A stretch of 64,000 nucleotides of DNA from assembly GCF_032854445.1 (NCBI RefSeq), contig NC_088305.1, positions 2,175,001-2,239,000 of the forward strand, read 5' to 3'. This DNA comes from Liolophura sinensis. Taxonomy: Eukaryota > Mollusca > Polyplacophora > Chitonida > Chitonidae. The stretch's first letter is position 1; every line of letters begins with the position of its first letter. The position numbers were made by a program, and so were the translations under genes. The notes beneath the pieces were generated by a model. It was not told the DNA's origin. It was given only the letters and a program-made list of their open reading frames with translations, and ran no database searches. Positions 7,066-28,051 of the stretch are shown here, piece by piece.

Positions 7066-7195
7066 ATGGGCCGTGGACTAGCTGCTCGTGAGGCCTGGGG
7101 CAACTGGTGTGAGTTTTTCCTCACTACTCTTGGCTACATGGTTGGCATCGGCAATATATGGCGGTTTCCTTATATCTGCTACTCAAATGGTGGAG
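7066..7195 (+). CDS. SLC6 exon 1 (TM1)
   Basis: Encodes residues 1-43 with the TM1 signature [14 protein letters not shown], which in the family lines the Na+ and substrate sites. The donor is GGAG|GTGAGT, phase 1. The start is ATG 7066; TGA at 7060-7062 is in frame upstream. AG at 7063-7064 could also be an acceptor, in which case this is not the first coding exon. Confidence 0.88.
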
Positions 7196-10100
7196 GTGAG
7201 TGTAGATAGCTATTTATTCATTCACAAAGGGCTTTCCGCTCGCCAAAAGTAACATGACAATAATATTGAGTAACTTTTTTCTCGCCATACACCTACAGGC
7301 AAAGAAGAGATGTGAGTTTCACAGAGATTTGTTTGGTGTTCTACGCCGTACTCAAGAATATTTCACTTCTACGAAGAGTTTCGCAGAGAAGCTAAAGGTA
7401 AGATTTCCATCTGTTCACTGACATGGTTTTCGGTTGTATTCATTCTGTTTATCGAACTTTCAAGAGCGATATGGATCGAACAATGCAACTGTGACTAGTA
7501 TATATCTGAAATTATATAACGTAAACTTATATGTAAAATTATGACACCAAAAATGCAAATTGGCTTTGAAAAAATCTATTAAACGAATAGTATTTATGAC
7601 TTTCTATACACAAGGGGATATTCCGTCACCATTATCGCTTACACTTTCTATAAACAACGGAATATTCTCTCACTATTATCTCTTACACTTTGTTTAGACA
7701 AGGTGATATTCTCTCAGCATTATCACTTAAACTTTCTTTAGACCACGGGATATTCTCTCACCATTATCCCTTACACTTTCTATAGACAAGAGGACATTTT
7801 CTCACTGGCATTACACTTTTTATACAAGGCAATATTCCGTTATCTTTACCACTTAAACTTTCTGCAGACAAGGCAATGTTCCATCAGTTTTATCACTTAC
7901 ACTATCTGTACACAAAGGGATAATCCGTCACCGTTATCACTTACACTTTCTGTAGACAAGGGAATAATCTGCCAACGTTATCACTTACACTTTCTATAAA
8001 CAAGGGGATATTCCGTCACCATTATCACTTACACTTTTTGTAGACAAGGGGATATTCCGTCACCATTATCACTTACACTTTCAGTAGACAAGTTGATATT
8101 CCCTCACCGTTATCATTTAAACATTCTCTAGACAAGAGGATATTTCGTCAAGGCTATCACTTACACTTACACTATTTCGTCACCGTTATCACTCAGACTT
8201 TTTGTAGAAAAGGGGATATTCTCTCACCGTCATCACTTACACATCCTCTAGACAAGAGGATATTTCGTCATCGTTATCAATTACGCTTTCTAGAGACAAA
8301 GAGATATTTCGTACCGTTATCACTTACGTTTTCTGTAGACAAGGGGATATTTCGTACCGTTATTACTTACACTTTCTAGGGACAAGGAGGATATTCCATA
8401 TCGTTATCACTTACACTTTCCATAGACAAAAGGATTGTACCGTTATTACTTACACTTTCTAGAGACAAGGGGATATTCCGTACCGTTATCACTTACACTC
8501 TCCTATAATAGAGAAGGGGATATTCCCTCACCGTTATCACTTACACTTCCTAGTGACAAGGGGATATTTCGTACCGTTATCACTTACACTTTTTGTAGAC
8601 AAGGGGATATTTCGTCACCGTTATCACTTACACTTTCTAGAGACAAGGGGATATTTCACACCTTTATCACTTACGCTTTCTAGAGACAAGGAGGTATTTC
8701 GTACCGTTATAACTTACGTTTTCTGTAAACAAGGGGATATTTCGTACCGTTATCACTTACACTTTCTAGAGACAAGGGGATATTTCACACCTTTATCACT
8801 TACGCTTTCTAGAGACAAGGAGGTATTTCGTACCGTTATAACTTACGTTTTCTGTAAACAAGGGGATATTTCGTACCGTTATCACTTACACTTTCTAGGG
8901 ACAAGGAGGATATTCCATATCGTTATCACTTACACTTTCCATAGACAAATTGATTGTACCGTTATTACTTACACTTTCTAGAGACAAGGGGATATTCCGT
9001 ACCGTTATCACTTACACTCTCCTTTAATAGACAAGGGGATATTCCGTCACCGTTATCACTTACACTTCCAAGTGACAAGGGGATATTTCGTACCGTTATC
9101 ACTTACACTTTCTAGAGACAAGGGGATATTCCGTCACAGTCATCACTTACACTTTCTAGACACAAGGGGATATTCCCACACCGTAAATATCCTAACTTTC
9201 TAGACGATGACGCTAATTGACAATTATGCAACACTTTCTAGAGACAAGGGGATATTTCGTATACTTTTAAGACACAAGGTGATATTCCCACACCGTAAAT
9301 ATCCTAACTTTCTAGACGATGACGCTAATTGACAATTATGCAACACTTTCTAGAGACAAGGGGATATTTCGTATACTTTTAAGACACAAGGGGATATTCC
9401 CACACCGTAAATATCCTAACTTTCTAGACGATGACGCTAATTGACAATTATGCAACACTTTCTAGAGACAAGGGGATATTTCGTATACTTTTAAGACACA
9501 AGGTGATATTCCCACACCGTAAATATCCTAACTTTCTAGACGATGACGTTAATTGACAATTATGCAACACTTTCTAGAGACAAGGGGATATTTCGTACCG
9601 TTATCACACACACTTTCTAGAGACAAGGGGTTATGTCGTATACTTTTAAGACACAAGGGGATATTCCCACACCGTAAATATCCTAACTTTCTAGACGATG
9701 ACGTTAATTGACAATTATGCAACGAATATAAATACCCAAAAGGTTGTCCAGTATACCCACCGTACAAAAATATTTTCAAATACCATTTTCTCTTTAAAAA
9801 AATCTAAAAAAAATATTAAAGGCCATATTTTCAAATAAGTTTTGACCCTCCTTCATCTGATTTTGGCATCATTTTTTATGTTTTTTTTCTCCTTTAACAA
9901 GGATATTTAGGCTGTTCTATCTAATTGTCTCTCCATACTATCCGAATGTATAGGTACATAGGTATATAGATAACGCTCCTGTACTACAGTGTACATGTAG
10001 GCCTACTTGGTGATAAAGAGAGGGGCGTTTAAACAAACTTATGGTTTAAATAAATATTGCAACTCAACTTTTTCAGGAATGTCATATTAGGCACGTTTCC

Positions 10101-13100
10101 CCAATAGGTCAATTTTTATTGATTTATTTGTATTAATTATACTGATGACTAACGCTGGCTGACCGATTTTTCTTCTGCACGATCGCCACGATATGGTTGA
10201 AATATTGCCGACGTGGCGTTTAAGCCATTCATTCATGCATTCATTCTTAAACACGATAACTCAGGGTTACAAAAGATTACTTTTTATATGGAGTAAAACC
10301 AGAGCAGCGAGGACATTGTGAAGAAAGAAAACCCCATCGTTCTTGACAAGATATTTGCCACACCTCCTGACGTAATGGCGCGTGTCTCTAAACTGGTTTC
10401 GGAGCGAAAACTGGATTCGAACGTACGATATCATTTGCCTTTTTTGCTTTTCTGTCCATTTATGACATTTATGTTTGTGTGTTCCAAGAACAATGTCCTT
10501 GTTCCAGTTTTCCAGACGTGTTCATCTTTTTATTTTTGTTTATTTATTTGATTTACTTGATTTTTTGTTTTACGAAGTACACAAGAATACTCCCCCCATA
10601 CGGCGGCTGCCAGCATTATGGTGGGAGGAAACCGGGCAGACTTTCCCACTTCATTTTTGTGTACCACGTTTTGTTCTTCTCATTGCCAATGACTTGATCT
10701 TATGAAAAACCTTGTTTTTCAGGTGCAATTTCTTTCCATTTATCCTCGTTATGTTTGTGTGTATTGCCTTTTCTTTGTGTCAATGCAAATGTCTTGGTCT
10801 TGTGACAAACTTTGTTTGTACAGGAGCCTTTCTCTTTCTATTTATGATCATGTTTTTGACCGTGTGCCGTGATGGTGCATTTGGTCTTGATGTGATATGT
10901 GCCATGACCGTATCCTTTTGCCAGCTGTGTCTTGTAGATGTCTTCCTCCCTCTGTCTTACCCGTGTTTGTGCCCTGAGGTCATGGTTCCTGCATAAGTGA
11001 AATATTCATGAGTACAACGTAAAACACTAATCAAATAAATAAATAAATATAATTCCTGCTTTTACAAACTTTGAAACTTATCTTTTCATATCTTTTCTTG
11101 TAAATCTTACGTCCCTGTATGAACTTGCGACGTAGCCGACGTATTTTGTGAAAAAGTTGCGAAAAACGTGACTTCTCTCTTTATTTTGTGAAAGTGGTCC
11201 CTTATCTTGTGACATTTGTCTGTCTTTGGTGACAGTGGCCCCTCATCTCGTGACATATTCTTTTGCAGGTGCTTTTCTTATCCCATTTATCATCTTTATG
11301 TTTGTCTGTGCGGTGCCAGTGGTTTTTCTGGAAATGTCATACTCGCAGTTCGCCAGCTTAGGACCAGGCAGGGCGTGGAGGATCTGTCCCCTGTTTAAAG
11401 GTAACCTTTCACTTAAACAACCAATCAGTACGTTGTTTAAAGGTAACTTATCAGATAAACAACGAATCTGTATTCTGATTAAAGATAACTTATTGGTGAA
11501 AGAACGAATCTGTACATTGTTTAAAGGTAACTTATCAATGAAACAACGAATTTGTACGTTGTGTAAGGTAAGTTATCAATGAAACAACGAATCTGTATGT
11601 TGATTAAAGGTAACTTATCAGTGAAACAACGAGTCTGTACGTTGTGTAAGGTAAGTTATCGGTGAAACAACGAATCTGTGCGTTATTTAAAGGTAACTTA
11701 TCAGTGAAACAACGAATCTGTGCGTTGTTTTAGGGTAACTTATCAATGAAACAACGAATCTGTATGTTGTGTAAGGTAACTCATCAGTGAAACAACGAAA
11801 CTGTACGTTGTTTAAATGTAAATTATCAGTGAAACAACGAATCTGTGCGTTGTTTAAGGGTAACTTATCAATGAAACAACGAATCTGTGCGTTGTTTAAG
11901 CGTAACTTATCAGTGAAACAACGAATCTGTACGTTGTTTAAGGGTAACTTATTAATCAAAAAAACAATCAATAGGCTGTTTAAAGGCAACATAGCAGTGA
12001 ACCAACCGTTAGGTTGTTTTATGGTCATTTAACAATAAAACAAGCAACCAATACTAAATCAAATAAGTAACAGAAAGGGTTTGAGAAATTAATTTGTGGT
12101 TAAGAAGTATGGGTTATCATTTCTCTGTAGTCACCACGTCTAAATATGATTCAGCCGAAATGATTTTATTAGTTCACGTCTAAGCTGTTTAGTCAAACCT
12201 GCCTCGCGAGGACATTTAGTGAGCCAGCAGAACACATATTTCTTATGCAATGCAAGAGAGTGATGGTCCATTCGACATGACATTGTGCGCACCACACACC
12301 ACCCCCTTTGAGCTCGTATGTCATATTTTTTACGGTATCAATCTCTACGGGTCAGCTTTAAGTGGCAATGTGAACCGGCATACATTGGTTATACACTCCA
12401 CAAATCACATGTAGGTTCCATTGGCGAAAGTGTTTTCAAGTGCAGGATTTCCTCTTTTTGTAGTGTATGTCATCTGGTAAGTTACACAGTTAGATCTTTT
12501 TGTAAACGTTCAACAGTTACAGTACATGTTTTACACATATTATGTAAATGTTAACATTTTACAGTAAACATTACACATTTATAACATGAACTAATGCATT
12601 TTTTTTCTGAAGTTGTAATCGTTTACATCGCTATCGTATGAATCAGTAAACACGAACGCGCATAACCCACCTCCCACCCAAATAGCTGAACGTCCATATC
12701 TGACCACGTTAGACGCTTGTATTTTTTAGAATCCTGTATATTAATTCACTATTTTCCTGAAGCTGATAGGCTAACAACGACTACAGATCTAGGTTGTGTC
12801 TTTTTGAGTAATTCTTGCAGTCAAGATTTTACTCATGGACGTTTATCAAGATAAGTGTTAAGATTTACTCGAGGTAGTTTATCAAGTGTTAAGATAAAAG
12901 TTAACGTATACTTTTATGTGAAGTGAAACTTTAACAGTGTATATGTGAAACTTTACTGTAAACGTTTAAGGGAAAATTTTAACAGTGTGTATGCTATTTT
13001 ATTCTACATAACTTTATACTATATGAAGTTGCCCAACCACATTGAATATAAATCTGTTCTAAGGTGAGTTCATCAGCAAGGCTCTTCAAACACCAACTAC

Positions 13101-16100
13101 TCAAGCAATTAATCGTTCTATCAACCTAATTTAAGCCTAAGACAATCCGTACAAAAGGATTTCTGTGACTGTTTTCCAAGTCCGCCTTTTCTCCCTAGGT
13201 GTCGGTGTAGGCATGTCGCTGGTCATTGGCATTGTCGCTATTTACTACAACGTTGTCATCGCCTGGGCCCTCTACTACCTTTACATGTCACTCAGGCGAG
13301 AGCTTCCGTGGAACATGTGCGACAATAATTGGAACACGCCCAACTGCTCCCTACGCTTGGGTCACGTGGACAATTCAACCAATCACACATCGTTCCTTGT
13401 GTCTTCTGCTTCAAACCTCAACCAGTCGTTTCACGCCAAAACTCCGACGGAGGAATTTTGGACGTAAGTAATGTTTATGTTTATTTTTATTATTTTTTGT
13501 TGGCACTTGTAACTGATGGGTTTATTAAACTTTTTTAATTAATTTCAACTCATAAAGGTTTGAATACATCAACATTGTTTTATCGCACTGAATTTACTCA
13601 CCGGAATATTTTCCTGAGACTGTCTCGTTCAATATGGAATACTATTTGAATAAGAAATAAAAAAAAAATCCTAGCGTAGTCATGTATATATACGCGTATG
13701 CATACATTGCAACAGTTGTCACATGAAGTCTTTAATAGGTTTTCATGAGCCAACGTATAACAGTTTAAATTTTAAAGAAATCCTCAGGGCCTTGTTGAAT
13801 TTTAAACAAATTTTTTAAAGCACTTTAACTCATTTTATTCCACGGTAATCCAGCCACAGCTTTCACTGTAAAATCCACACTTTAAAACAGAGCATTAATC
13901 TCCCAACGTTACTGAAATAAAAATATAACCAAGGTTGTTAAACTAATCTGTATGAACCGATGTACATGTTTATGATAAATAATATTTCAAAGAATTAAAA
14001 CGTTTTTCTTTTCTTACAAATTGGTTTATTTAATTATTTGATTGGTGTTTTGCACCATACTCCGGAATATTTCACTCATACAACGGCGGCCAGCATTATG
14101 GTGGGAAGAAACCGAGCAGTGCCCTTGAGAAATCCACGACCATCCGCAGGCTGCCGCAAGACCTTCTCACGTACGACCGGAGAGGAAGCCAACATGAAGT
14201 GGACTTGAACCCACAACGCAAACGCAATTTTGAAAGGCCCTTGTGTCATTGCCCGTGCAGGCACGCTTACCACCTCTTCCTTCTTACAAATTGAGCTACG
14301 TTCTAAAAGCAACCTTTTAATTATCGACGTGTTTTTTGCATCCCCATTATGAATATATACTTTGTCTTTCCGTATTACGAAACTTAATTGTGGGCAATTT
14401 GAGAAACTTGCCTGTAGCCCTAAATATTCAGTGTGTTGGCCCCTCAGATCGTTCGAAAACCAGTATAATTCCTTGCGTAAGCCTGGCCAGTGTCACGTGG
14501 GATATAAGCTCTCTCGTTTTGCTAGTTTTTTTTCTCCTCTCTGATCACGCTGACACAACTGCTTTGGTTGTCTTAGGCATCACGTGTTGGAGATGTCCAA
14601 CGGGATAGAGACGCTTGGCAACATTCGGTGGCCGCTCTTTATCTGTCACGTGATCACCTGGGTTGTCGTTTTCCTCTGTGCGCTGAAGGGAATCAAGAGT
14701 TTCGGGAAGGTAACGCTCAGATTGAACAAAGTTGTCACTGTTACACGCAGATGCAGTAACACCACTAAATTTTTTTATTTATGTGATTGGTGTTTTACGC
14801 CTTACTCAAGTTTATTTCATTTTTAAGGAGGGAGGAAACCAAGCAGAGCCCGAGGAAACCCACTATTCACAGGTTTCTGCCAGACCTTCCCATTGATGCT
14901 CTCAAGCTTAGCTGTTAGCGCAACCGTGAGGTAACCGTGTATGATGTGTGTATTTCAGTTTCTGGTGCAGTGGTGAATAAATAATTATTTTTGAACACCA
15001 CATACAGGACGCTCTAAGCACTAGGCCACCGACGTAGCCTGAACACCACATGTAGTCCCAGCTAATTTTTAGATCTGGCTTTCTTTCGTTTTTGCGTTTT
15101 TCCCGCCCTTTGGTTGGGCGTGGGGAGTTATTTTGCAGAACTGGCTTACATGCTAGGTGTGTTTTGGGAAAAGCTGAAACTTTGCCCGATGAATACACTT
15201 GGAAACAGGGTAAGTCTTTTCCGGCTGTGTAGAAAGCTCAGTGATAATGAATTTAATCTGTGATTAAATTGAAAAATAATTGTGATGTAACGGGGTCATG
15301 CTGTGGCCTAACACCGTCTCTAATGACCGAGAAGCCTCGCCCTTGAACAGGTCTTGGATCTTGGAATTCCTGGTACAAAGCTATTATTATACCCCGCTGT
15401 TAGTTGCTGGCCGTGTGCAAATATACAAATTTATTTTAAATAGAGATGACCTTTCAAACAACATCGAGTGTGTCACGCAACACACCGGCCGGTACGTTTA
15501 CCTCCCCGAGTAGGTTAATATGGTTTCATGTTGTTTATGTCAATCAATAAAAGGATTTGATTTTGTTTACTTCTTAGGTTTGCTTTTGTGATATATATAA
15601 AGGTGAACTATCGGAATTTCCTCCAGCGATAAAAGTGTTATTTCGAAAAGTTTATAGATATCGCTTTGGTTTTTACATTTTGATAATTTACACCCAGACG
15701 CCGTGACGTGGAAAAAGAAACATTTGTTTCATGACGTTCCAGTCTGAGCTCAGCGGTAAGCGTCATAATGTGCAGTGCAATTTTACATTCTTGCGTCACA
15801 TAACAATGAGACATGACGTCATACATACGCAACTTTGAAATACCTAGGTCAACTGCACCGGAATAAGCTTTCCATCGATTGGACTAAAATGTATGACCGC
15901 TGTGGAGGGAGGGAAAGAGAACGACAGCCTAAAACTGCATGATGTATGCCGCTTTTGCCTCATTTTCTTCATTTTTTAAAAACAGAATAGACTTTAACAC
16001 TTTCGTCTTCGTGTTTGTTGAATGACCCGTTGCGATATCGGATTACACAACAAACACCGCTACACCTTAAACCCATCTAGTCTCTCCTTTAGACCGTCAC

Positions 16101-19100
16101 AGTTATCGCTGTATGTGTGTTCATAAAACCTGTACGAAGTACACACGTACTGCAATGTGACAGAAGAGAACGATGTGTTGTACTATCATTTGGACCGTTT
16201 GTGTAGCTCGTCCTCAAGTCTTCCAGTTGTTTGCCTTAACACATAAAGGCAAAGAAACCACTAACGTGAAGTTTATGTCAAATGAAAGACCATTAAACGA
16301 TGTTGATGATTTTTCGACCTAATACTTTGATTCTACGGTGGCCTTTTTTGGCCATATTGGAAGATCGGGTGTTCGGGTGTCGCCTGGGTAGAGTTTATTT
16401 AATGTTTTCAGACCAAATCTTCTCGCTTCCAGGTAGCTTACTTTACGGCGACAGCCCCCTACCTCTTGCTCATCATTTTGCTCATCAGAGGCGCCATGTT
16501 GCCGGGAGCCATGGACGGACTGAAATATTACCTCATCCCGCAGTGGGATAAACTGAAAGAGATCAAGGTCAGTCGCGTGGATAGTGCCCTGCGGACGGTG
16601 TTAGATAGGTTGTGCTATACGGACCGTGCTAGAATGGATAGTGCTATGCTGCGGTGTTAAAATGGACAGAGCTATACGAACCGTGCTAGAATGGATAGTG
16701 CCATATGGGCAGTGCTAGAATGGATAGTGCTATACAGCGGTGTTAGTATGGATAGTACTATATGGGCGGTGTTAAAATGGACAGGGTCATTCAAACGCTG
16801 TTAGAATGGTTTATGCTGTACGGACGGTGCTAGAATGGATAGTGTTATACAGGCGGTGTTAGAATGGATAGTGTCATTCAAACGCTGTTAGAATGGTTTG
16901 TGCTATACGGACGGTGCTAGAATGGATAGTGTTATACAGGCGGTGTTAGAATGGATAGTGATATACGGGCGGTATTAGAATGAACAGTGCTCTACAGGCG
17001 GTGTTAGAATGAATAGTGCTATACGGGCGGTGTTAGAAGGGATAGTGCTCAAATGCTGGGATGGCCGATGCTGGAATGGGCTATGTTGGAATGGGCGGTT
17101 TTAGAATAGACTGTATTAGAATGGCCGGCTTTAAACTGAATTGTGTAAAAATAGACAATTTCGGAATCCGTTATATTGGAGCATTAGACTGGTCACTGTG
17201 TTAACACGGGTTATATTTAAAATGAGCTTTATTGGATTAGGCAATAGTGGAATGGGCTGTATTTGAATAAACTTTTTTGCATTGGAATCTCGGTATTGGA
17301 ATTAGAGTGACTGAGTGAGTGGTTATGGTTTAAAGTCGTACTTAACAATTTATACTGATACCATACTGCACCATTATACTCATACAGGTCCACCACTCGT
17401 TGCACTATCCCCTTAATGCTGAACGCCAAGCAAGGAAGCTACAACTAGGCGAATCTAGACTAATATCGCAGATTGTATTACAATTATGTAGAGATTCTAG
17501 ACTAATATAGCAGATTGTATTACAATTATATAGGCATTTCTAGACTAATATAGCAGATTGTATTACAATTATATAGGCCCCCTAGGCGGTTCTAGACTAA
17601 TATAGCAGATTGTATTACAATTATATAGGCGGTTCTAGACTAATATCGCAGATTGGATCATAATTATATAGGCGGTTCTAGACTAATATCGCAGATTGTA
17701 TTACAGTTATATAAGCGGTTCTAGACTAATATCGCAGATTGTATTACAGTTATATAGGCGGTTCTAGATTAATATCGCAGATTGTATTACAATTATATAG
17801 GCGGTTCTAGACTAATATAGCTGATTGTATTACAGTTAACTTGTAATTGTCAGGTGTGGACGGCAGCAGCCATGCAGATCTTCTACTCTGTGGGATGTGG
17901 TGGGGGTGGGTCGGTCACCCTGGCCAGCTATAACAAATTCAACAACAATATCATCAGGTGAGAGCAGGCTCAATAATTTTTTTTTAGAGAGTGTAAGACC
18001 AGGGTCCAGTTGTCGAAACGGTTTTAAGACTTAATACCAGATTAAAATTTAAGCCAAGTCTTTAAATGTGTAAAATTGTGTAAACAGTGTAAAGTAAATC
18101 TGCTACTGTTATACTTTGACTTTGGCTATAACTGCACTGGTTGCTGATTTTGGCTAAAATTTTAAATATAAATTATGACTTAATACACTTATTAACTAAT
18201 ACACCTTCGAACAATTGGACCCAGGTGTTTTACTATCACTATTACACTGACATTGCGCTGACATTTTTCATGGAAGCATGAAAGGTTGCTTATGGTTTAA
18301 CACCTTTTTCATTTGTTGATCTATACAAAGGTGGTGGAGGAAACTGGAGCGCTAGGGGGAAACCTCCTACCTTCTGACAATCGTATGGCTCACAAACTTG
18401 CACTCCATGTTTCCTACGGACGCATTCAGAGTCCTTAAGGGAGTTCCCAGTGGCAATGTGACAGAATGACCTACCGCTAAAATGAGTGACTAAATTTCGA
18501 TTGCTATCTCCTGATCAGTCCGACCACGTATTTAAATGTGGGTGACACTGATTTGGCTGCAGCCTTAGGTTAGGCAGATTATTAGGCACTCGTTGAGGCG
18601 CGGTGGATTCCTCGCCCTACACGGGGTTATATTCCAGTGGAATCCGCAGGAAATGAAGCAAATAAAGTAATTATCATCCGTTTTATTCTTTAACAGGGAC
18701 GCGCTTCTCTTCCCCTTGATGGACACGGCTACGTGCCTGCTCTGCGGTCTCGTTATCTTCGTGGTTCTCGGGTACATGTCTCACGCTACAGGCTTGCCTA
18801 TAGACAGTGTCGTTGCTGAAGGTATATAAACCCGAATTATCCAGTATGTACACAACATATAGCACGCTACAGGCTTGCCTATAGACAGCGTCGTCACTGA
18901 AGGTATATAAACCCGAATCATCCAGTATGTACACCACATGTAGCACGCTACAGGCTTGCCTATAGACAGTGTCGTCGCTGAAGGTATATAAACCCGAATC
19001 ATCCAGTATGTACACCACATGTAGCACGTTACAGTCTTACCTATAGACAGTGTCGTCGCTGAAGGTATATAAACCCGAATCATCCAGTATGTACACCACA

Positions 19101-22100
19101 TGCAGCACGCTACAGGCTTGCCTACAGACAATGTCGTCGCTGAAGGTATATAAACCCGAATTATCCAGTATGTACACCACATGTAGCACGCTACAGGCTT
19201 ACCTATAGACAGCGTCGTCGCCGAAGGTATGTAGACCCGAATCATCCAGTATGTACACCACATGTAGCACGCTACAGGCTTACCTATAGACAGCGTCGTC
19301 GCCGAAGGTATGTAGACCCGAATCATCCAGTATGTACACCACATGTAGCACGCTACAGGCTTACCTATAGACAGCGTCGTCGCCGAAGGTATGTAGACCC
19401 GAATCATCCAGTATGTACACCACATGTAGCACGCTACAGGCTTACCTATAGACAGCGTCGTCGCCGAAGGTATGTAGACCCGAATCATCCAGTATGTACA
19501 CCACATGTAGCACGCTACAGTCTTACCTATAGACAGCGTCGTCGCCGAAGGTATGTAGACCCGAATCATCCAGTATGTACACCACATGTAGCACGCTACA
19601 GGCTTACCTATAGACAGCGTCGTCGCCGAAGGTATATAAACCCGAATCATCCAGTATGTACACCACATGCAGCACGCTACAGGCTTGCCTACAGACAATG
19701 TCGTCGCTGAAGGTATATAAACCCGAATTATCTAGTATGTGCACCACATATAGCATGCTACAGGCTTGCCTATAGACAGGGTCGTTGCTGAAGGTATATG
19801 CACGAGACTAATCCAATATATGCACTAGATGCAGCACGCTACAGGCTTGCCTGTAGACCGTGTCGCTGAAGGTAGGCCTATATAAAGGGGAATTGGCCAT
19901 CATGCACACTAGGTGTTGCATGCTACAGGCTTGCATATAGACAGTGTCGTCGCTGAAGGTTTATTAACCAGAAGTATTGCTTAGACACCAAGCAAACATG
20001 TTTCTCACTGTTTGCTGGGTTGTACTGTCATTAGAACCGACTTCAGCTGAAGACACATGTATAATATACCAAACGTATTCAGTCTGTAGCCTACGTGTCT
20101 TAGGCTACATGGCCACTTATAGCAGCTGTTGTCGCTGAATGTACATTAACCAAACGTATTCGGTCTGTAGCCTACATGTCTCAGGCTACATGGCTACCTA
20201 TAGCAGCTGTCGTCGCTGAATGTACATTAACCAAACGTATTCGGTCTGTAGCCTACAAGTGTCAGGCTACATGGCTACCTATAGACGTCTGTCGTCGCCG
20301 AATGTACATTAACCAAACGTATTCAGTCTGTAGCCTACATGTCTCAGGCTACATGGCTAGCTATAGACGTCTGTTGTCGCTGAATGTATATTAACCAAAC
20401 GTATTCGGTCTGTAGCCTACATGTCTTAGGCTACATGGTTACCTATAGCAGCTGTCGTCGCTGAATGTACATTAACCAAACGTATTCGGTCTGTAGCCTA
20501 CATGTCTTAGGCTACATGGCTACCTATAGCAGCTGTCGTCGCTGAATGTACATTAACCAAACATATTCGGTCTGTAGCCTACATGTCTCAGGCTACATGG
20601 CTAGCTTTAGACGTCTGTTGTCGCTGAATGTATATTAACCAAACGTATTCAGTCTGTAGCCTACATGTCTCAGGCTACATGCCTACCTATAGACGTCTGT
20701 CGTCGCTGAATGTATATTAACCAAACGTATTCGGTATGTAGCCTACATGTCTCAGGCTACAAGGCCATTTATAGCAGCTGTTGTCGCTGAATGTATTTTA
20801 ACCAAACGTATTCAGTCTGTTGCCTAATGCCCCAGGCTACATGCCTACCTATAAACGTCTGTTGTCGCTGAATGTATATTAACCAAACGTATTCAGTCTG
20901 TTGCCTAATGCCTAAATGCCTAATGCCTAAAACATATTTCTCACACTACTGTCGACCTCACTAGACGTCACCGATGATACATGTTGCCTGGACATGTATC
21001 ATTTCCAAATATTTTATTATACTTCCTCTCTACTTATACGTAAATAAATTTATTTATTTATTTATTTGTTGGGGATCTGCACCGTACTTAATAATATTTC
21101 AGTTAAACGACGGCGGCCAGCATTATGGTGGAAGGAAACCGGGCAGAGACCAAGGGAAACCCACAACCATCCTCAGGTTTCTGACAGACCTTTCTACGTC
21201 CAGCTGGAGAAGAAGTCAGTATCACAGATTGCCGCTTAGCGCTGTTATACGAAACATTCTTGACACATAGAAATATACGAAACATAGAAAATAACGTAGG
21301 AAATAAATAAATATTTGAGTTTTGAATCTGTATTGCGTGTTTAGGTCCGGGCATTGCGTTTATGGTGTACCCCGAGGCGCTAGCACAGCTGCCCCTGGCT
21401 CCCATGTGGTCCGCCTTCTTCTTCCTGGTGCTCTTCATGGTCGGACTAGACTCGCAGGTAAGTCATACCGTATAACGTATACCGTGAGTCCCAAAGACTG
21501 GTGACTGGCCAGGTTAGCCATTCAGGCCAGTCATATCGTAGGCCTATACATATGCCATCAGCCCCAGCTACCGTGAACTGACCGGGTTAGACTCGTGGGT
21601 CAATCATAACGTATACCTTATACCGTACAGCTTTTGGGGACTGGTCGGATTAGACAGTCAGACCTGTCATATCGAATAGCGTATACCCTGAGCCCCAGCT
21701 ACCGGGAACCGGACGTGCTAGACTCACAGGTCTGTCATATTGTATACCGTATACTGTATACCGAGCGCCCCAGAGACCGGGAACTGGTCGGCTATTATGC
21801 CAGGCTAGTATCACGTGAAGTGTCACACTAGTAAAACAAGGAGGTTAAAAATTTGTGACGTGATACACTTGGATTATTGTATCGAACATATCTAGATATT
21901 CTGAGATCAAAATACATAGTTTATGATAGTGAAATATGTAACAAAAAATTGTGAGACGTCAACGTTGCCAAACACTACCAATATAATCGATAAAACCCAT
22001 CTTAAATTTAAAATATCTGTATTCATTTAATTCTGGTTGAAATATTTGTTGGTAAACGGTGAACTTATTTTTGTACCGTTTTCTTATGACGACGACTTCT

Positions 22101-25100
22101 ATGAGGATTTGTAAGACAGGTCGCGATTCTCTGTCTAGTATGCTCTTTTTTCATGTGTTTTCGGTTTCACTAGCCTTGCTTTTGTGTTTTGTTTTCCATG
22201 TTATAGTTCGTCCACGTAGAGATCGTTGTTGGCTGCTTGACTGACATGTTCCCGCAGTACCTCCGGACTCGGAAGATGCTGACCAACAGCGTTTTTATCC
22301 TCATAGCCTTCTTCCTGGCTATACCGTGTCTCACTCAGGTAACTGAGAAACGAGACATCTATCCATAAATCACCTTACATCATACCCACCCCGCTCCCAA
22401 CCGTCTTGCCCCCGTTCCCATATCTAGATCGCAGTAGTAGGCCTAATTAGAAGCCTCTCCGCGAGAGCAAATCAAATTCCTACACCACAGACAAAGTGGC
22501 ATTACTCTGCATTACCACCCTGTGGATGCTGTGGAATCGTTTACAAATTGTGGATTACCACCAAACGTTTTGCGGATTGGTCCTTAGTTCCATGCCAGTC
22601 TGTGCACAAAATTTCATCCAAATTTCTTCATAACCTTTTCCATGAAATAGCTGACAGACAGACAGACAGACAGACAGCCAGACTGGCAGACAGACAGATT
22701 AACGCCAGCAGAAACATGCCGTCCTTGGCGGATCTAACCAGTGTCACTATGACGTAACTAATCTGGGTACATCATACCACACGTCATCCAGAATTCAGTG
22801 AATGAATTGTTAAACCGCTTTGTATGCGTCGCCGTGATGTTTTGGTTTTGAGATGATGGTGAATCGAACTGTTCAGCTATATACCATGCCAAATCTTTCA
22901 GTAAATTACTAATTGTGTACGCCACCGATACATCCACTCATGTATGATTCCAGATATGAACCGTTGGACAGTATCTCATTACCCAGGTCTACCTACATCT
23001 ACAAGAAAAAAAAATAAATACATAAATAAACAAACCAATACAAATATGGATAAAGAAATAAAGTTAAAATTACTCTTGACTGTGGACTGTATCTTTATTG
23101 TGGACAACCCAGTTTCCTTGGCCCACAGCCTGACTGATTTGAAGTAAATACTCAAATAGATAAATGTTTCATTTATGTTTTATTCTCCCCGGCAGGGTGG
23201 TGTTTACGTCCTCCAGGTTATGGACTGGTATGCTTTGGGCTTCAGTGCAACAACATTGGCCTCAGTGGAGATGCTGGTCATATCGTATATCTACGGTAAG
23301 AGATACATCTATATTAAAAGATACAAGTGGTGTAAGAGATACACGTACGGTAAGAGATATAAGTAGTGTAAGAGATACACGTGCGGTAAGAGATACAAGT
23401 AGTGTAGGAGATACACGTACGGTTAGAGATACATCCATGGTAAGAGATACGTGTACGGTAAGACATACATTTGTAGTAAGAGATACGTGTACGGTAAAAC
23501 ATACATTTGTAGTAAGCGATGCATGTACAGTAAGAGATATATTTTAACGTAACAGATACGTCTGTGGTAAGACATACATCCACAGTAAGATATACATCCA
23601 CCGTAAGAGACACATCTACAGTAAGAGATACATCCACGGTAAAAGACACATCTACGGTAAGAGATACATGTACAGTAAGAGATACATCCATGATAAGAGA
23701 TATAAGCAGTGTAAGAAATACACGTACGGTAAAAATACATCCATGGTAGGAGATACATGCACCGTAAGAAACACATTTGTAATAAGAGATGCATGTACAG
23801 TAAGAGATACATATTAATGTAAGAGATACATTATGTTGTGTCCTTTCAGTATTAAATAACGTGTTAACTCAACATTTAGTCTAAGTATTCATTACTCACT
23901 TATGGCTTCAATTTCCGCCAGATTTTCACATTTTAGAGCAATAACCCAGGAGGTGAAAACAGAGTGGTCGGTAATCACAATTCGCTCTTCGTGATGCTAA
24001 CGCTGGACACACTCGGTACGGAGAGTTGTGGACTGTAATTACCGAGTGACATTCTCTGTAAGAATGCTTCATCCGTTTATATTTGTGATTCGAAGTCGGC
24101 AGACCCCGCGAACAAACCAAAGACATTAAAATGGTACATTTAGCTGCCTCGCTTGGCTCTCAGCATTGAGATGTTAGAGCAAAGGAACAGGTTTTGGCTG
24201 TCCCTTTGTCAGTATAATGTGACTGGGTGGAGCAGGGTGGGGCGTCATGCCTGTTGTCTTCGGCATGATATGTGTACTTCAGTGTCAGCAGCGCTTTGGC
24301 TGCATGGAGTCATCCTGCTGTAATAGTCGAAGTTATCTATAAGTTATGGAAACGTTCTGTATAAGTTACTAATACGTTATGTATACGTCCAACTCTTTGG
24401 AATACGACATGTATGCACCCAAAATTGAAAAAAAACCCCAAAGAAACAAGCTTCGATAATTCGGCGTGTACCAGTGCTTTAGATAAATTTTCATACTCTG
24501 GCTAAATCGTCAAGGTGTAACAGGGCTATAGAGAGACAGTATAGGTGTACACACCTCGTCTACAAATGACTGACAATTTGCTATGCCCCAGCACGGCGTG
24601 AAAAAACTAAGCATACATTCATAGGTAGGGCCAACATATTGTGTAGTCATGTTTTTTATCTCTGAAGGAAGCCAGGCAGACCCTCGAACTCATATGAAGC
24701 AAGATTATTGATTATTGCGCATCAATCGATCAGCCAATAAATGTATCATCCCATCACTCACACATTCAATGTTTATCCTGTAGGAGTGGACCGATTGTTT
24801 GCGGACATTGAGGTTATGATTGGGAGGAAACCATCGAGAATCTGGAAACCGTTTTTATTGTTCCTTACTCCAGCCACAATTCTTGTAAGTATATAAACCA
24901 GTATTGCTTATTCATTGGGAATTTTGGGGCCGTGGCAGAGTGGTTAAAAGTGATTGCCTTACAATCACTAGAACACACAAGGGTGCGTCAGGAAAACTGC
25001 AGTTGGAAGACTGTTTTTATGCCCCAAAGGGAAAGCTGAGAAGCCTTTTTGTGCCTTTATGTGTTAGAACACCTCTCATACCACAAATTAATAGATGAAA

Positions 25101-27968
25101 ACAAAACGTTTCATGTATCCTTCAAGCTGCTTTCACAATGTGCGATTGTTGAGTCGAATTCGAGTAGTCTGATGAAAATAGGACATGCCACACTTCATGC
25201 GATGCCAGCATTCGACAAATCGCATCGTCGAATTCGACAAGTCGACACTATAACTCTCGTCGTATGAATGCGGCTTCAGACAGCTAAAAACGCCGGCTGG
25301 TCGTGACTGTCAGGCACTTAGGTCACGTGTTCTAATCCAACTCTCGTTTGTTGGGCTCTGATTTTGTCAGTTACTGGGTTAATGACGGTGGTTTGCACTG
25401 GGTGTTTCTCCACTCATAATCCTGGTTGCTGACCAGTGAAGCATTCTTGAGGACGGCGTTAAACATAAATAAATGAATAAATAAATGAACGAATAAATAA
25501 GTCAAGCCAATGAATCTGTTGTCTTCAGTTCATCCTGCTCAGCTCTATGGCCATGCACCAACCGGTACGGTATGGAGACTACAGTTACCCTGGCTACGCC
25601 ATCTCTTTTGGTTGGTTCACCGCCGTGGTGTCCTTGTTTCCCATTCCGCTTTTTGCTCTGTGGCAGATCGCGAGATCTCGCGGGTCTTTCATAAAGGTAC
25701 GTAGACATATATGTAAATAGTATATAAAAGTGTCGAAACTGACCACGATATGGCTTAAATACTGCAAACGTCTGTTTAAGGCCCGAGCTAATGCTGGTAT
25801 ATGATAGATAACCCGGAAGACAATTTTCAAAATCAGGAATCTTAATTTTCTAACAAGGATTCACAGGATGTATAGGTGTACTGCATCTATAACAAGAATG
25901 GAGATTTTAATTATGTGACTCTCCCTTTTGTGGATATGTCTGCCTGTACAGTATTTTAAGCATGTACTTTTATAATGCTGTAAAAGATGAATTTTTATGT
26001 GCATCTGTTTAACGGTTGGCAAAGGTCACTTCTGAACATTCTGAAGATTTATTGGTTGATTGATTGATGTATGTAAATTTTAACCTTCTATGGCGGTGAT
26101 TAGGGGCCGGTTTCATAAATCTTACTTAGTGTTAAAGGAGAAGAACTTAAAAACATGACACTTTAGGCTGAAAAGAGCACATTTTTTTCTGTCTGGTGGT
26201 ACCTGCTGCATAAGTTTTCGATTTTTCCTCGCCATACTGGTAAAGCCTGAAAACGGCCAGTGCGTCCTCCATCTTTAACACCCTGTAATTTATGCTGGAG
26301 GTGTGTTGCCTCTCAGCCATTGAGAGTCGTTAAAACTGCCGACTGGTTCGTGTAAACTCGGAACCTACGTCCAACATTCCGGTTTTCCGATCGTCAAGCA
26401 GGAAACGAACTGTACTGTTCGCTACCTGCTGGGAAGAAGAGTTCTACCGAAAATATACGAACTGCGCTTCGGCGGTCTCCGACGGAATTCTTCTCCTAAC
26501 ACAGAAGACTTCAGGACTAGTTCTGAGGCAAAATGGAATCGCCCACAGCGGATTTTGGCGCTGACTTATAAGCGCTGATTTATAATTTTTTATTGAGGTA
26601 CATATTAGAATTTTTTTGGCATGCACCTGCGAGGAAATGCATACTCTTTTCAACGGTATTTTATTGATCTTTAAATTTTCTTCTCCTTTAAGTTTCCCAA
26701 AGCTAAGAGCACTTTATATCTCTACAACAAACGTTTTCTTGGTAATTAAGGGCTTACTTAGCTAAGTGATCTTCATGAAACCTGCCCTAAGTTTGTAACT
26801 GGAGGAAGCCGGAGATCCTGGAGTAAACCATCGACCTTCGCCAGTTACCTGACAAACATCTTGATAAAACCGCAGCCAAATAAATGAGAGCTGGATTCGA
26901 ACATGCGACCTCATTGAGCCAGGACCTGATCGTAGCAGCGAGCCAGCCCTCTAACTATTTGAGCTGTGAATCGGAAGCCGAATGTTGAATCATAACTTTT
27001 CAGGGTTAATTCTTTCCATATTTGTCGTACTTCAGCCGCACTTTCTTTTCTGAGTGTTATACTTAATAGGCCAAATGCAGAAAAGTGGTACAAAGGAGGG
27101 ATGATGTTTCCCACTGACGATCTCAGTTACACCACAATTGGTATGCATAAGGCTGTTGTAAGCAAAACTGATGCATAACCTTATTAAACGAATGGCTGGA
27201 AGTATGCATAGCGATGGAATAGCGTATTCCGTAGTCGAAATACACTGGGTTTGCTGGTGTAAGTTATATACTTCCCGTGGGAGACTTTAAGGCTGATGGT
27301 AATACTATAGACAGTATCGTCAAATTTGCATGCTGTTGAAAGGATGCGGCATGGCTCCTAAGACAGGTTGCTGGCAAATCTTCCCACGTACGGAGAGGAA
27401 GCCAGCATGAGCTGGGTTTGAACTCACATCAACCGCATATGGTAAGATGCTCCTGGGTCATTTCTTCGCGCTGGCGTATTTATCTCCTTAGCTCAAAGCA
27501 CGCAATCAATCAACAAATTGAAGAGTCGACCAACTTTGTGATTATGCGGGCTAAATGTATAGGTATTATTGTATGTGATAATAATGACGATAATTATTTG
27601 ATAACCATTCACTATATTTTTTTATGGCCATTCATTATAATTAATTGATGACCATTCACTGTAAGTATTTGATGATCATTCACTGTGACTGTTCGATGAC
27701 CATTCACTGTAATTATTTGATGACCATTCACTATAATTATTTGACTATAATTATACATTTGCAGCGCGTGGTCCATTCACTGTCACCAAGCCGGAATTGG
27801 GGACCAAACAACATGGCGGACAGAGAGGTGTACATGAAGAGTTTACGGCGAGATGTAGGCAGTATAGTCGGCTGTTTCGGCAGGCTAAAGAAACCAGACG
27901 AGGGTTCCCATAGCAAGGCAGTTACCATGCAGATGATGGAAAAAGATGAAATAGTCAATAGTGTATGA
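7066..27968 (+). CDS. SLC6-family Na+/Cl--type neurotransmitter/amino-acid transporter (13 exons)
   Basis: Exons 7066-7195, 11269-11400, 13199-13463, 14577-14709, 16433-16567, 17854-17957, 18697-18821, 21345-21457, 22207-22338, 23196-23295, 24784-24884, 25529-25696 and 27765-27968 join in frame to 1842 nt (613 residues plus stop), close to the usual SLC6 length. The product should be a 12-helix plasma-membrane symporter that imports an amino acid or amine using the Na+ gradient. Family marks are GNIWRFPY in TM1, the EL2 cysteine pair C128/C137 with four N-glycosylation sequons, SYNKFNNN after TM6, GLDSQF at TM8 and NWGP near the C-terminus. It most resembles the glycine/GABA/taurine branch, but the substrate cannot be assigned. 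The N-terminus before TM1 is short (about 18 residues), and an in-frame stop lies just upstream of the chosen ATG, so an unseen upstream exon is possible. Introns 2, 5, 7, 8 and 10 start with minisatellites. Confidence 0.93.
7196..7599. other. SLC6 intron 1, proximal part
   Basis: Contains a 45-bp SINE-A fragment at about 7325-7370 (reverse orientation) and no exon. Confidence 0.6.
7600..9722. repeat. large ~43-bp minisatellite in SLC6 intron 1
   Basis: The unit is of the form AGACAAGGGGATATTTCGT plus ACCGTTATCACTTACACTTT. There are about 45 units, diverged on the left and homogeneous on the right. A ~129-bp block is duplicated at about 8634 and 8763. From 9181 a 112-bp higher-order unit containing CCGTAAATATCC and GACGATGACGCTAATTGAC repeats at 9181, 9293, 9405 and 9517, with another copy at 9672. 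Confidence 0.93.
9723..11268. other. SLC6 intron 1, distal part
   Basis: Holds a SINE-A fragment in reverse orientation at about 10540-10650 and a SINE-like tail near 10990-11055. Open frames at 10318-10996 are low-complexity and have no family match. Confidence 0.55.
11269..11400 (+). CDS. SLC6 exon 2 (TM2)
   Basis: Acceptor TTTTGCAG|GT and donor TTTAAAG|GTAACC, phase 1 at both ends. It encodes residues 44-87, [12 protein letters not shown] through RICPLFK. The usual TM2 tyrosine after AFLIP is Phe50 here, a position that contributes to Cl- binding in relatives. The last 20 bases of the exon are the founder of the array that follows. Confidence 0.93.
11380..12035. repeat. 42-bp minisatellite seeded by SLC6 exon 2/intron 2 junction
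   Basis: Each unit has the form GTAACTTATCAGTGAAACAA then CGAATCTGTACGTTGTTTAAAG, so it holds a copy of the exon end plus the donor. Exon GATCTGTCCCCTGTTTAAAG and unit AATCTGTACGTTGTTTAAAG agree at 16 of 20 bases. About 15 units. Read in the exon frame the exon's RICPLFKG recurs as RICTLFKG for about four units before a stop at 11580-11582. Confidence 0.93.
12036..13198. other. remainder of SLC6 intron 2
   Basis: AT-rich, no exon or recognised repeat family. Confidence 0.6.
13199..13463 (+). CDS. SLC6 exon 3 (TM3 and extracellular loop 2)
   Basis: Acceptor CTCCCTAG|GT, donor GGAC|GTAAGT, phase 1 to 2. It encodes residues 88-176. TM3 is followed by [16 protein letters not shown], matching the family's disulphide-linked loop (C128-C137). 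Sequons NCS136, NST146, NHT149 and NQS162 indicate a glycosylated outer loop. Confidence 0.94.
13464..14029. other. SLC6 intron 3, proximal part
   Basis: No exon or clear repeat. Confidence 0.6.
14030..14310 (-). mobile_element. SINE family A in SLC6 intron 3
   Basis: Reverse-oriented copy from TTATTTAATTATTTGATTGGTG through the body and a diverged head (GACTTGAACCCACAACG). It is older than the copies with intact target-site duplications. Confidence 0.82.
14577..14709 (+). CDS. SLC6 exon 4 (TM4)
   Basis: Acceptor GTCTTAG|G, donor GGGAAG|GTAACG, ends in phase 0. It encodes the end of loop 2 and TM4 ([20 protein letters not shown]), ending KGIKSFGK as in relatives. Confidence 0.94.
14710..16432. 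other. SLC6 intron 4
   Basis: Contains a degraded SINE-A copy in reverse orientation at about 14770-14950. The rest, including open frames at 14908-15832, shows no family. Confidence 0.6.
16433..16567 (+). CDS. SLC6 exon 5 (TM5)
   Basis: Acceptor CTTCCAG|GTA, donor ATCAAG|GTCAGT, phase 0 at both ends. It encodes TM5 ([20 protein letters not shown]) and the [17 protein letters not shown] loop typical of SLC6. Confidence 0.95.
16568..17060. repeat. ~32-bp minisatellite starting at exon 5 donor
   Basis: Units look like GTTAGAATGGATAGTGCTAT then ACGGGCGGTG. The first unit starts with the donor itself (GTCAGTCGCGTGGATAGTGC). About 15 units, decaying to the right until about 17240. Confidence 0.9.
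17445..17840. repeat. 43-bp minisatellite ending at exon 6 acceptor
   Basis: The unit contains GATTGTATTACAATTATATA and GGCGGTTCTAGACTAATATC. About nine units. The last one runs to within about 15 bases of the acceptor TAATTGTCAG at 17853. Several units carry TTACAG, an acceptor-like motif. Confidence 0.92.
17854..17957 (+). CDS. SLC6 exon 6 (TM6)
   Basis: Acceptor ATTGTCAG|GTG, donor ATCAG|GTGAGA, phase 0 to 2. It encodes residues 266-300, [19 protein letters not shown] then SYNKFNNN. Gln273 and Ser277 match conserved chloride-site residues. The glycine-rich unwound stretch of TM6 is unusually rich (GCGGGG). Confidence 0.95.
17958..18696. other. SLC6 intron 6
   Basis: No repeat array and no recognised element. 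Confidence 0.6.
18697..18821 (+). CDS. SLC6 exon 7 (TM7, start of extracellular loop 4)
   Basis: Acceptor TTAACAG|G, donor GCTGAAG|GTATAT, phase 2 to 1. It encodes residues 300-341. TM7 reads [19 protein letters not shown]. The family's Asn/Ser chloride ligands are Asp309 and Cys313 here. The last 40 bases of the exon founded the array that follows. Confidence 0.94.
18782..19975. repeat. 81-bp minisatellite seeded by SLC6 exon 7/intron 7 junction
   Basis: CACGCTAC recurs at 18782, 18863, 18944 and onward every 81 bp for about 14-15 units. The first unit is the exon end (CACGCTACAGGCTTGCCTAT through GCTGAAG) plus the donor and 41 intron bases. Later units keep GAAGGTATATAA or GAAGGTATGTAG. 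Long minus-strand frames (18683-19698) exist only because 81 is a multiple of three. Confidence 0.95.
20040..20960. repeat. second 81-bp array, diverged paralogue of the exon 7 junction array
   Basis: Units contain TACATGTCTCAGGCTACATG, CTACCTATAGCAGCTGTCGT and CGCTGAATGTACATTAACC, homologous to exon 7 TACATGTCTCACGCTACAGG onward and its donor, but starting further inside the exon. The donor's last exon G is replaced by T (GAATGTA). About 11 units. Confidence 0.9.
21050..21235 (-). mobile_element. SINE family A in SLC6 intron 7
   Basis: Reverse-oriented body (CGGCGGCCAGCATTATGGTG, AACCGGGCAGAG). The head is lost or diverged after 21200. Confidence 0.85.
21345..21457 (+). CDS. SLC6 exon 8 (extracellular loop 4b, TM8)
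   Basis: Acceptor GTGTTTAG|GT, donor TCGCAG|GTAAGT, phase 1 to 0. It encodes [13 protein letters not shown] and TM8 ending GLDSQ. The D377/S378 pair belongs to the Na2 site in relatives. Confidence 0.95.
21436..21825. repeat. ~65-75-bp degenerate array seeded by exon 8/intron 8 junction
   Basis: The exon end GGTCGGACTAGACTCGCAG plus GTAAGTCATACCGTATAACG recurs as CCGGGTTAGACTCGTGGGTC, GTCGGATTAGACAGTCAGAC and CGTGCTAGACTCACAGGTCT, each followed by TCAT and TATACCGTATACC-like text. Five to six units. Confidence 0.8.
21826..22206. other. rest of SLC6 intron 8
   Basis: AT-rich, nothing recognised. Confidence 0.6.
22207..22338 (+). CDS. SLC6 exon 9 (TM9)
   Basis: Acceptor ATGTTATAG|TTC, donor ACTCAG|GTAACT, phase 0 at both ends. 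It encodes [16 protein letters not shown] then TM9 ([17 protein letters not shown]). Confidence 0.94.
22339..23195. other. SLC6 intron 9
   Basis: Holds a (GACA)n microsatellite at about 22650-22700. No exon. Confidence 0.65.
23196..23295 (+). CDS. SLC6 exon 10 (TM10)
   Basis: Acceptor CCCGGCAG|GGT, donor TCTACG|GTAAGA, phase 0 to 1. It encodes [17 protein letters not shown] through [10 protein letters not shown], the standard TM10 pattern. Confidence 0.94.
23284..23830. repeat. 18-bp minisatellite seeded by exon 10/intron 10 junction
   Basis: The unit GTAAGAGATACATCYACG starts at the donor and copies the exon's last bases (ATCTACG). About 30 units. Many keep ACGGTAAGAG, a strong donor match. 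The exon frame reads on as [13 protein letters not shown] to a stop at 23364-23366. Period 18 keeps other frames open, which explains long antisense frames here. Confidence 0.92.
23831..24783. mobile_element. rest of SLC6 intron 10 with SINE family C remnant (about 24110-24640)
   Basis: TCAGTATAATGTGACTGGGT and GTCTTCGGCATGATA match the dispersed repeat seen again at 42755-43070 and 57445-57640. The tail AAACTAAGCATACATTCATAG is also shared. The copy is diverged. Confidence 0.7.
24784..24884 (+). CDS. SLC6 exon 11 (start of TM11)
   Basis: Acceptor ATCCTGTAG|GA, donor ATTCTT|GTAAGT, phase 1 to 0. It encodes [18 protein letters not shown] and the first half of TM11. Confidence 0.94.
24885..25528. 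other. SLC6 intron 11 with tRNA-like SINE head
   Basis: 24927-24990 (GGCCGTGGCAGAGTGGTTAA, then CTTACAATCACTAG) resembles a tRNA-derived SINE head of a second family (B). Its tail near 25440-25500 reads GGCGTTAAACATAAATAAAT. The acceptor stem does not pair into a functional tRNA. Confidence 0.6.
25529..25696 (+). CDS. SLC6 exon 12 (end of TM11, TM12)
   Basis: Acceptor GTCTTCAG|TTC, donor ATAAAG|GTACGT, phase 0. It encodes [23 protein letters not shown] compressed around the TM11-12 loop, then TM12 ([19 protein letters not shown]). Confidence 0.94.
25697..27595. other. SLC6 intron 12
   Basis: Includes a SINE-A fragment in reverse orientation at about 27365-27480 (GGAAGCCAGCATGAGCTGGG, GCTCCTGGGTCATT). 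The remainder shows no exon. Confidence 0.6.
27596..27745. repeat. 24-bp repeat next to SLC6 exon 13 acceptor
   Basis: TTTGATGACCATTCACTGTA recurs six times. The core CCATTCACTGT is also in exon 13 itself at 27773-27783, just inside the acceptor. Confidence 0.8.
27765..27968 (+). CDS. SLC6 exon 13 (C-terminal tail) and stop
   Basis: Acceptor ACATTTGCAG|CGC. It encodes the 67-residue cytosolic tail from [16 protein letters not shown], where NWGP matches the family's DWGP. Ends TGA 27966-27968. AATAAA at 28046-28051 is a good poly(A) signal. Confidence 0.92.
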   Translation, partial: RVVHSLSPSRNWGPNNMADREVYMKSLRRDVGSIVGCFGRLKKPDEGSHSKAVTMQMMEKDEIVNSV

Positions 27969-28045
27969 GATTTGGAAATAGGCCTCAGAAAACACGGATA
28001 TTTTAACAATAATAGGATAATTGTTTAACTACCATATACACAAGA

Positions 28046-28051
28046 AATAAA
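28046..28051 (+). terminator. poly(A) signal of the SLC6 gene
   Basis: AATAAA 78 bases after the stop codon, in the transcript sense. Confidence 0.7.

Follow-up and report, generated by a model that had tools for sequence, protein, structure and literature searches.

What places minisatellites across the splice junctions of a gene? The question is raised by a gene of the SLC6 transporter family in the window, by which we mean the whole 64,000-nucleotide stretch of DNA analysed here (C11:2175001-2239000 in a Liolophura sinensis assembly of 609,464,459 bases in 632 contigs). Tandem arrays span the 5' splice site (donor) in four of its 12 introns, namely 2, 7, 8 and 10. These arrays are probably 'mirages', a name used for comparable repeats in amphioxus: minisatellites that arose from one short stretch, tens of bases long, duplicated in tandem across an exon-intron junction.

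The SLC6 gene and its donor-spanning arrays

The gene model (Table 1) comprises 12 introns, all of them GT-AG, and an open frame of 613 amino acids that is intact when read through the first, outermost donors. The SNF family of Pfam matches the encoded protein with an E value of 1e-181, and among solved structures its closest relatives are those of GlyT1. We conclude that this is an intact SLC6 gene of the glycine-transporter-like kind. A spliced aligner given the protein from this same model and positions 11001-29000 recovered both ends of each of exons 3-12, as well as the point where exon 2 ends and that where exon 13 begins, which is a check on the consistency of the aligner and not independent proof of the model; exon 1 lies outside that stretch, so the run does not settle where exon 2 starts.

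To gauge self-similarity at the donors, the last 25 exon bases and first 35 intron bases were compared with the remainder of their own intron, and the scores were set against 200 dinucleotide shuffles. All 200 shuffles were beaten by the donor regions of introns 2, 5, 7, 8 and 10, but not by those of the other seven of the 12 introns. Unit-by-unit alignment of introns 2, 7, 8 and 10 revealed that the repeated piece consists of the exon tail, the donor and the start of the intron. The authentic junction is itself one of the units, the first on the donor side and the last where an array lies on the acceptor (3' splice site) side. The intron 8 repeat is absent from the window's list of arrays from Tandem Repeats Finder (TRF) and was recognised by self-similarity and unit alignment. 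At the donor of intron 5, similarity begins at +10 and the copies contain neither the GT nor exon bases, so that this array merely adjoins the donor. The second array of intron 7 is related to the first but has diverged; it retains a part resembling the exon tail, and in its donor context T has taken the place of the final exon G. A further array, detected by TRF, ends 20 bp before exon 13. The longest run of arrays in the introns of the gene is about 2.1 kb.

An earlier note on this stretch had described arrays beginning at the donors of introns 2, 5, 7, 8 and 10. That description fits all of these except intron 5, and the copies of the exon end that it reported in the units of the other four are evident in the unit alignments. 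Its unit lengths of 42, 81 and 18 bp agree with ours; the units of intron 8, put at about 68 bp, range from 63 to 75 bp, and those of intron 5, put at about 32 bp, measure 29 bp. The second array of intron 7, the copies of the exon-2 start in intron 1 and the arrays that end shortly before exons 6 and 13 are additional to that description.

Table 1. Coordinates of the SLC6 gene and of the repeats at its splice junctions, in positions of the window
Feature	Position	Strand	Description
SLC6 (GlyT-like) gene, predicted	7066..27968	+	13 exons; Pfam SNF match; spliced alignment as consistency check
SLC6 exons 1-7	7066-7195, 11269-11400, 13199-13463, 14577-14709, 16433-16567, 17854-17957, 18697-18821	+	
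SLC6 exons 8-13	21345-21457, 22207-22338, 23196-23295, 24784-24884, 25529-25696, 27765-27968	+	
Intron 1, degenerate copies of exon-2 start	10445..10856	+	three, at about 10445, 10712 and 10802
Intron 2, donor-spanning array	11392..12006	+	42 bp x14.7; at least 9 exon bases; GT kept in 12/14 copies
Intron 5, first array	16578..17049	+	29 bp x16.4; begins 10 bases past donor; no donor or exon copy
Intron 5, second array	17446..17838	+	43 bp x9; ends 15 bases before exon 6; copies acceptor-side -50 to -15 only
Intron 7, donor-spanning array	18774..19973	+	81 bp x14.8; 48 exon bases per unit; GT kept in 14/14 copies
Intron 7, second array	20068..20907	+	81 bp x10.3; diverged relative of first intron 7 array
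Intron 8, degenerate donor-spanning repeat	21440..21786	+	5 units of 63-75 bp; 11-20 exon bases; GT kept in 2/4 copies
Intron 10, donor-spanning array	23289..23831	+	18 bp x30; 7 exon bases per unit; GT kept in 26/29 copies

The acceptor-side counterpart of the donor-spanning arrays is found in intron 1, among the degenerate copies of the start of exon 2. The copies at about 10712 and about 10802 include the acceptor, the latter being marginal (score 31, compared with 29 for the best of 300 shuffles). A 112-bp repeat present four times at 9151-9597 has the look of a higher-order version of the intron 1 array, whose units are 43-44 bp long. Upstream of the gene, about 0.7 kb before the start codon, a 36-bp array at 6039-6395 lies within an open frame of 147 codons on the plus strand, where it reads as a 12-residue repeat.

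The unit sequences are mutually unrelated: seven units were compared, and none of the 21 pairs scored above all 200 shuffles. A shared origin of the arrays is ruled out by this result. Probes from the units of introns 2 and 7, the two that were searched, found no second site in the 609-Mb assembly, the search being one that skips very common words, and a dispersed satellite was rejected as the source of these two units. The earlier note's view that the sequences are unrelated and the events independent is thus upheld by the unit comparison, by the uniqueness of these two probes and by the paralogues described below, which have arrays of their own at the same introns.

Old introns and younger arrays in the paralogues

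Hits in the assembly suggested some 33 SLC6 places, of which 13 paralogues were modelled in full by spliced alignment of the window protein in 200 kb of sequence (20 tiles of 10 kb). They provide 112 introns at the 12 conserved positions; 17 of the 129 predicted introns lay off those positions and were dropped. All 12 intron positions of the window gene recur among the paralogues with their phases, any one position being shared by 3 to 13 of them. Because these positions are common to the paralogues, the introns are old and the arrays are younger additions. No TRF array of at least 2.5 copies is present in 79 of the 112 paralogue introns, and the paralogues hold their own arrays at the same old positions.

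The self-similarity test, applied to the paralogues with 60 shuffles and a cut-off of z above 4, identified six duplicated donor regions and eight duplicated acceptor regions in the 112 introns, of which five and seven, respectively, cross the junction itself. The two that do not are in intron 4 of the gene at C8:50.18 Mb, where similarity runs from +4, and in intron 2 of the gene at C10:16.0 Mb, where it is confined to -33 to -17. Applied to the window gene, this test picks out 5 of 12 donors (four crossing) and 2 of 12 acceptors (one crossing). Since acceptors are duplicated about as often as donors in the paralogues, the rule concerns splice junctions and not donors; the donor-only rule of the earlier note was drawn too narrowly.

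Two of the paralogue arrays are striking. At C8:50.10 Mb, intron 10 of the paralogue carries 32 copies of a 38-bp unit that includes 20 exon bases, with the GT kept in 29 of 31 copies. The acceptor of intron 9 in the gene at C8:50.21 Mb is copied by 44-bp units, along with as many as 27 exon bases, in at least 12 stretches. Intron 2 of L011, another SLC6 locus, has a donor-spanning array (45 bp x9.7). The unit lengths of the window gene's three TRF junction arrays, 18, 42 and 81 bp, are all multiples of three. Frame preservation was nevertheless rejected as the cause of unit length: none of the eight junction-spanning paralogue units is a multiple of three, the ninth, that of L011, being one. 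Judged from the sequence of the window gene, splicing at the inner donors closest to the exon would preserve the frame in introns 2 and 10, and splicing at an inner donor of intron 7 would lead to a premature stop.

Repeats at the intron 10 donor occur in three of nine such donors, with differing units (seven full introns, that of the window gene included, together with those of L006 and L010). The donor-spanning units in the window gene, L033 and L045 are 18, 38 and 67 bp long and lie at the same conserved donor. It is possible that this donor is a hot spot, or that the coincidence is due to chance. Elsewhere, intron 1 of a paralogue on the minus strand (L038-L039, G000:C8:50214001-50234000) contains an array of 93 copies of a 57-bp unit, 5.3 kb in all.

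Arrays at junctions compared with uniform placement

The number of arrays expected at junctions was calculated from a placement null in which a seed of unit length u lands anywhere from u before the donor to u after the acceptor, with the grown array removed. The main test used TRF arrays of at least two copies, which left 56 after 4 of 60 with fewer than two copies were dropped. Over all genes, 11 of the 56 arrays span a junction compared with 4.0 expected, an excess of about 2.7-fold (P 0.0014). In the window gene, which was chosen for this trait, 3 of 12 arrays span a donor compared with 0.30 expected (P 0.0028) and none spans an acceptor. The paralogues contribute three donor-spanning and five acceptor-spanning arrays out of 44, with 1.7 of each expected (acceptors, P 0.026); for both junction types together the count is 8 of 44 against 3.4 (P 0.016). 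Splice junctions seem to be seeded, or their arrays kept, at about 2 to 3 times the rate expected from uniform placement. The excess is modest and depends on the cut-off, yet it looks real.

A probe that requires no annotation was applied to the whole assembly: the same motif was sought in pairs 25-54 bases apart, and the pairs were counted per single occurrence. For the donor motif MAGGTRAGT, there were 2057 pairs for 33,488 occurrences (6.1%). Its three controls gave 598 of 24,245 (2.5%) for the reversed motif, 545 of 22,979 (2.4%) with GT changed to GA and 380 of 28,700 (1.3%) for the reverse of the latter. The acceptor-like motif TTYTNCAGG was paired in 2042 of 68,095 cases (3.0%), and its reversed control in 484 of 37,096 (1.3%). 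Tandem recurrence of the donor motif is therefore 2.5, 2.6 and 4.6 times that of its three controls, and recurrence of the acceptor motif 2.3 times that of its one. In these figures large arrays weigh heavily, one array supplying most of the first 100 acceptor pairs listed, and the motifs are splice-like, not proven splice sites. The excess may also reflect in part that arrays and true splice sites are both commoner in genes.

Counting loci instead of pairs, we found 14 donor-motif loci in C1:1-5,472,700 among the first 100 pairs listed, compared with four for the reversed motif and six for the GT-to-GA motif; for donor versus reversed loci in this stretch alone, P is 0.07. This stretch is untypical, because it contains 100 of the 2057 donor pairs in less than 1% of the genome. 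Scaled by pair counts, a rough extrapolation from it suggests about 290 donor-motif loci genome-wide compared with about 96 for the control. Mirages may be frequent in this chiton.

Origin of the arrays and rival explanations

The proposal that we favour, that the arrays are mirages, can be set out in a few steps. An initial duplication across the junction would arise by replication slippage, template switching or staggered-break repair. It would survive because the copy beside the exon stays in use, preserving the exon, the frame and the splice site, while the surplus copies fall into the intron. The array would later grow, shrink and homogenise as an ordinary intronic minisatellite, and the outermost site would still serve in splicing, as the intact frame of the window gene implies. 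No function for the arrays is needed in this explanation, and a bias that links seeding to junctions is plausible. Two of the rivals, chance placement and junction-directed birth, differ from the mirage explanation only over the junction excess and are compatible with it.

It is possible, if on balance somewhat doubtful, that chance placement in a minisatellite-rich genome is all that is needed and that the window gene is an extreme case picked by eye. TRF arrays make up 34% of its intron bases, compared with 17% over all 14 genes, and 4.0 of the 56 arrays tested would be expected to span a junction by chance alone. Several results weigh against any special role for junctions: the paralogue donors taken alone are not in excess (3 versus 1.7, P 0.24); the paralogue excess weakens with the copy cut-off, to P 0.069 at three copies or more and P 0.13 at five or more; and 14 extra SLC6 loci, aligned in both orientations (two of them, L012 and L027, yielding no junction), add one of 31 donors, that of L011, and none of 26 acceptors spanned by a TRF array. 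Moreover, FAM221, the other multi-exon gene modelled in the window, has large arrays but none at its four donors or four acceptors, on a model made by eye in which the family match is limited to the first two exons, some exon ends are about one base off and the joined frame shifts. The excess in the paralogues and over all genes at the main cut-off nevertheless argues against chance alone, as does the genome-wide pairing of both splice-like motifs. The second rival, in which duplications start more often at splice sites owing to co-transcriptional stalling, R-loops, nucleosome edges at exons or breaks, we consider rather unlikely. The combined excess at donors and acceptors and the excess of both motifs at tandem spacing are consistent with it. 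However, the excess is modest, that of the motifs may partly stem from arrays and splice sites sharing genes, and the sense-strand GC skew of 11 junction-spanning arrays (mean 0.057) is no different from that of 49 others (0.075), so the R-loop link suggested by the earlier note finds no echo in base composition.

The remaining rivals fare less well. Selection for decoy or redundant donors, kept for the control of splicing, was another candidate of the earlier note and is very unlikely. The GT is indeed kept in most copies of the arrays of introns 2, 7 and 10 (Table 1) and in the paralogue array noted above, and the donor 9-mer is on average a little better conserved than the rest of the unit in intron 2 (0.905 versus 0.887), intron 7 (0.952 versus 0.918) and intron 10 (0.828 versus 0.824). 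Ranked among all 9-base windows of the unit, however, the donor is 14th of 42, 12th of 81, 9th of 18, 60th of 68 and 25th of 38, and so is never the best conserved in the five of seven arrays open to ranking (of the other two, one offered a single usable copy and the second did not divide into units). The donor is not clearly more conserved than its unit, the diverged second array of intron 7 has an altered donor context, and acceptors are copied about as often as donors; selection of this kind finds no clear support. That the arrays are artefacts of assembly, repeats either collapsed or invented, is also very unlikely. Tandem arrays are where assemblers fail, but the units carry ordered variants and the mean read of the PacBio HiFi assembly of Liolophura japonica, very probably the present chiton, given as 8,347 bp at 14x in the accessible part of its report (PMC11068029), exceeds any array in the window. 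Scarcely credible, finally, is the idea that the arrays are the origin of the introns, through tandem duplication of an exon stretch bearing AGGT (intron gain of the Rogers type). The units do hold an exon tail and a GT, and intron gain by tandem duplication is reported for potato RdRp (PMC4974935) and proposed for human boundary repeats (PMC2812944), as far as the accessible parts of those papers go. Against it, each of the 12 positions, with its phase, is found again among the 13 paralogues, most of whose introns lack a TRF array of the size given above. The intron is not new at any of the 12 positions, and intron gain in the window gene is excluded.

A broader form of the mirage explanation is that both types of splice junction act throughout the chiton genome as hot spots where minisatellites are born or retained, with hundreds of mirages as the result; this we advance tentatively. 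If it is true, such hot spots would leave introns stocked with splice sites ready for use, a supply for lengthening exons or splitting introns, and mirages would be a general way for introns to grow, in several phyla and not in amphioxus only. If the genome-wide excess holds, the birth of minisatellites is tied to gene architecture. The old question whether splice junctions attract tandem duplication or merely tolerate it would then become testable, and the arrays would offer a natural series, running from 2 to about 30 near-identical donors one after another, with which to ask how the spliceosome picks the outermost.

Other features of the window

An intron of FAM221 contains a 74-bp minisatellite at 51907-53182, the unit of which resembles, by eye, a piece of a dispersed element like a short interspersed element, or SINE (ccagcattatggtggga...). 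This SINE-like element recurs in the window, and the array is perhaps a fragment of it turned tandem. A text search of the literature with a 21-base piece of the element gave no match. The next FAM221 intron holds two adjoining arrays at 54270-56888 (95 bp x7.7 and 38 bp x44), hundreds of bases from the modelled junctions. On the minus strand, an open reading frame of 165 amino acids at 41218-41715 encodes a predicted EF-hand protein (Pfam EF-hand_7, 8.6e-12).

Comparison with known systems

Intronic repeats of variable copy number occur in human SLC6 transporter genes, as STin2 of SLC6A4 and in intron 8 of SLC6A3. They resemble the chiton arrays in being minisatellites inside SLC6 introns; they are not known to copy an exon end with its donor.

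The closest parallel is with the amphioxus mirages. These are described, in the accessible parts of the reports, as tandem repeats spanning 5' or 3' boundaries in Adh3, TnC, the globin genes BflGb6 and BflGb9, and PGBD5, with units of 10 to about 160 bp, the splice site copied and splicing reported as normal (PMC3087553, PMC3902484). In the same parts, length polymorphism and somatic instability are reported for Adh3 and the authors call the generating mechanism unclear. The chiton units are likewise, to judge from those accounts, tandem duplications of minisatellite size that span the exon-intron boundary and copy the splice site. Units bearing exon edge, splice site and intron edge are found in introns 2, 7, 8 and 10 and not in intron 5; their sizes of 18, 42, 63-75 and 81 bp lie within the amphioxus range; and both boundaries are affected, with five donor and seven acceptor crossings in the paralogues and the intron 1 copies in the window gene. 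On sequence grounds, the chiton gene therefore falls under the structural definition of mirages. The earlier note knew of no described process that seeds satellites at donors; for the phenomenon itself this does not stand, such repeats being on record at 5' and 3' boundaries in amphioxus and at human exon-intron boundaries. Unlike the amphioxus examples, the present case is in a mollusc, has four donor-spanning arrays within a single 12-intron gene, reaches 30 copies (32 in a paralogue) and comes with a measured excess over a placement null.

Two other systems share part of this pattern. Human genes in segmental duplications have minisatellites at exon-intron boundaries, with units of about 30 bp and about four copies on average, which the accessible part of the report describes as creating novel introns and alternative transcripts (PMC2812944). 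The chiton arrays are also minisatellites at such boundaries; their introns, however, are ancient and no new exon edge was seen. In potato RdRp, on a similarly partial account, a single duplication crossing an intron-exon boundary made an intron (PMC4974935). Here too a boundary-crossing duplication supplies extra splice sites, but in the chiton it does so without a new intron.

In the literature searched, outside which most subscription papers fall, the term mirage is applied to such repeats in amphioxus only, and no molluscan case of boundary minisatellites was seen among the papers listed. What is new here is the phylum, the density within one gene and the measured junction excess. Boundary-spanning repeats themselves are an oddity already on record, though seldom remarked on, and the fullest descriptions come from lancelets.

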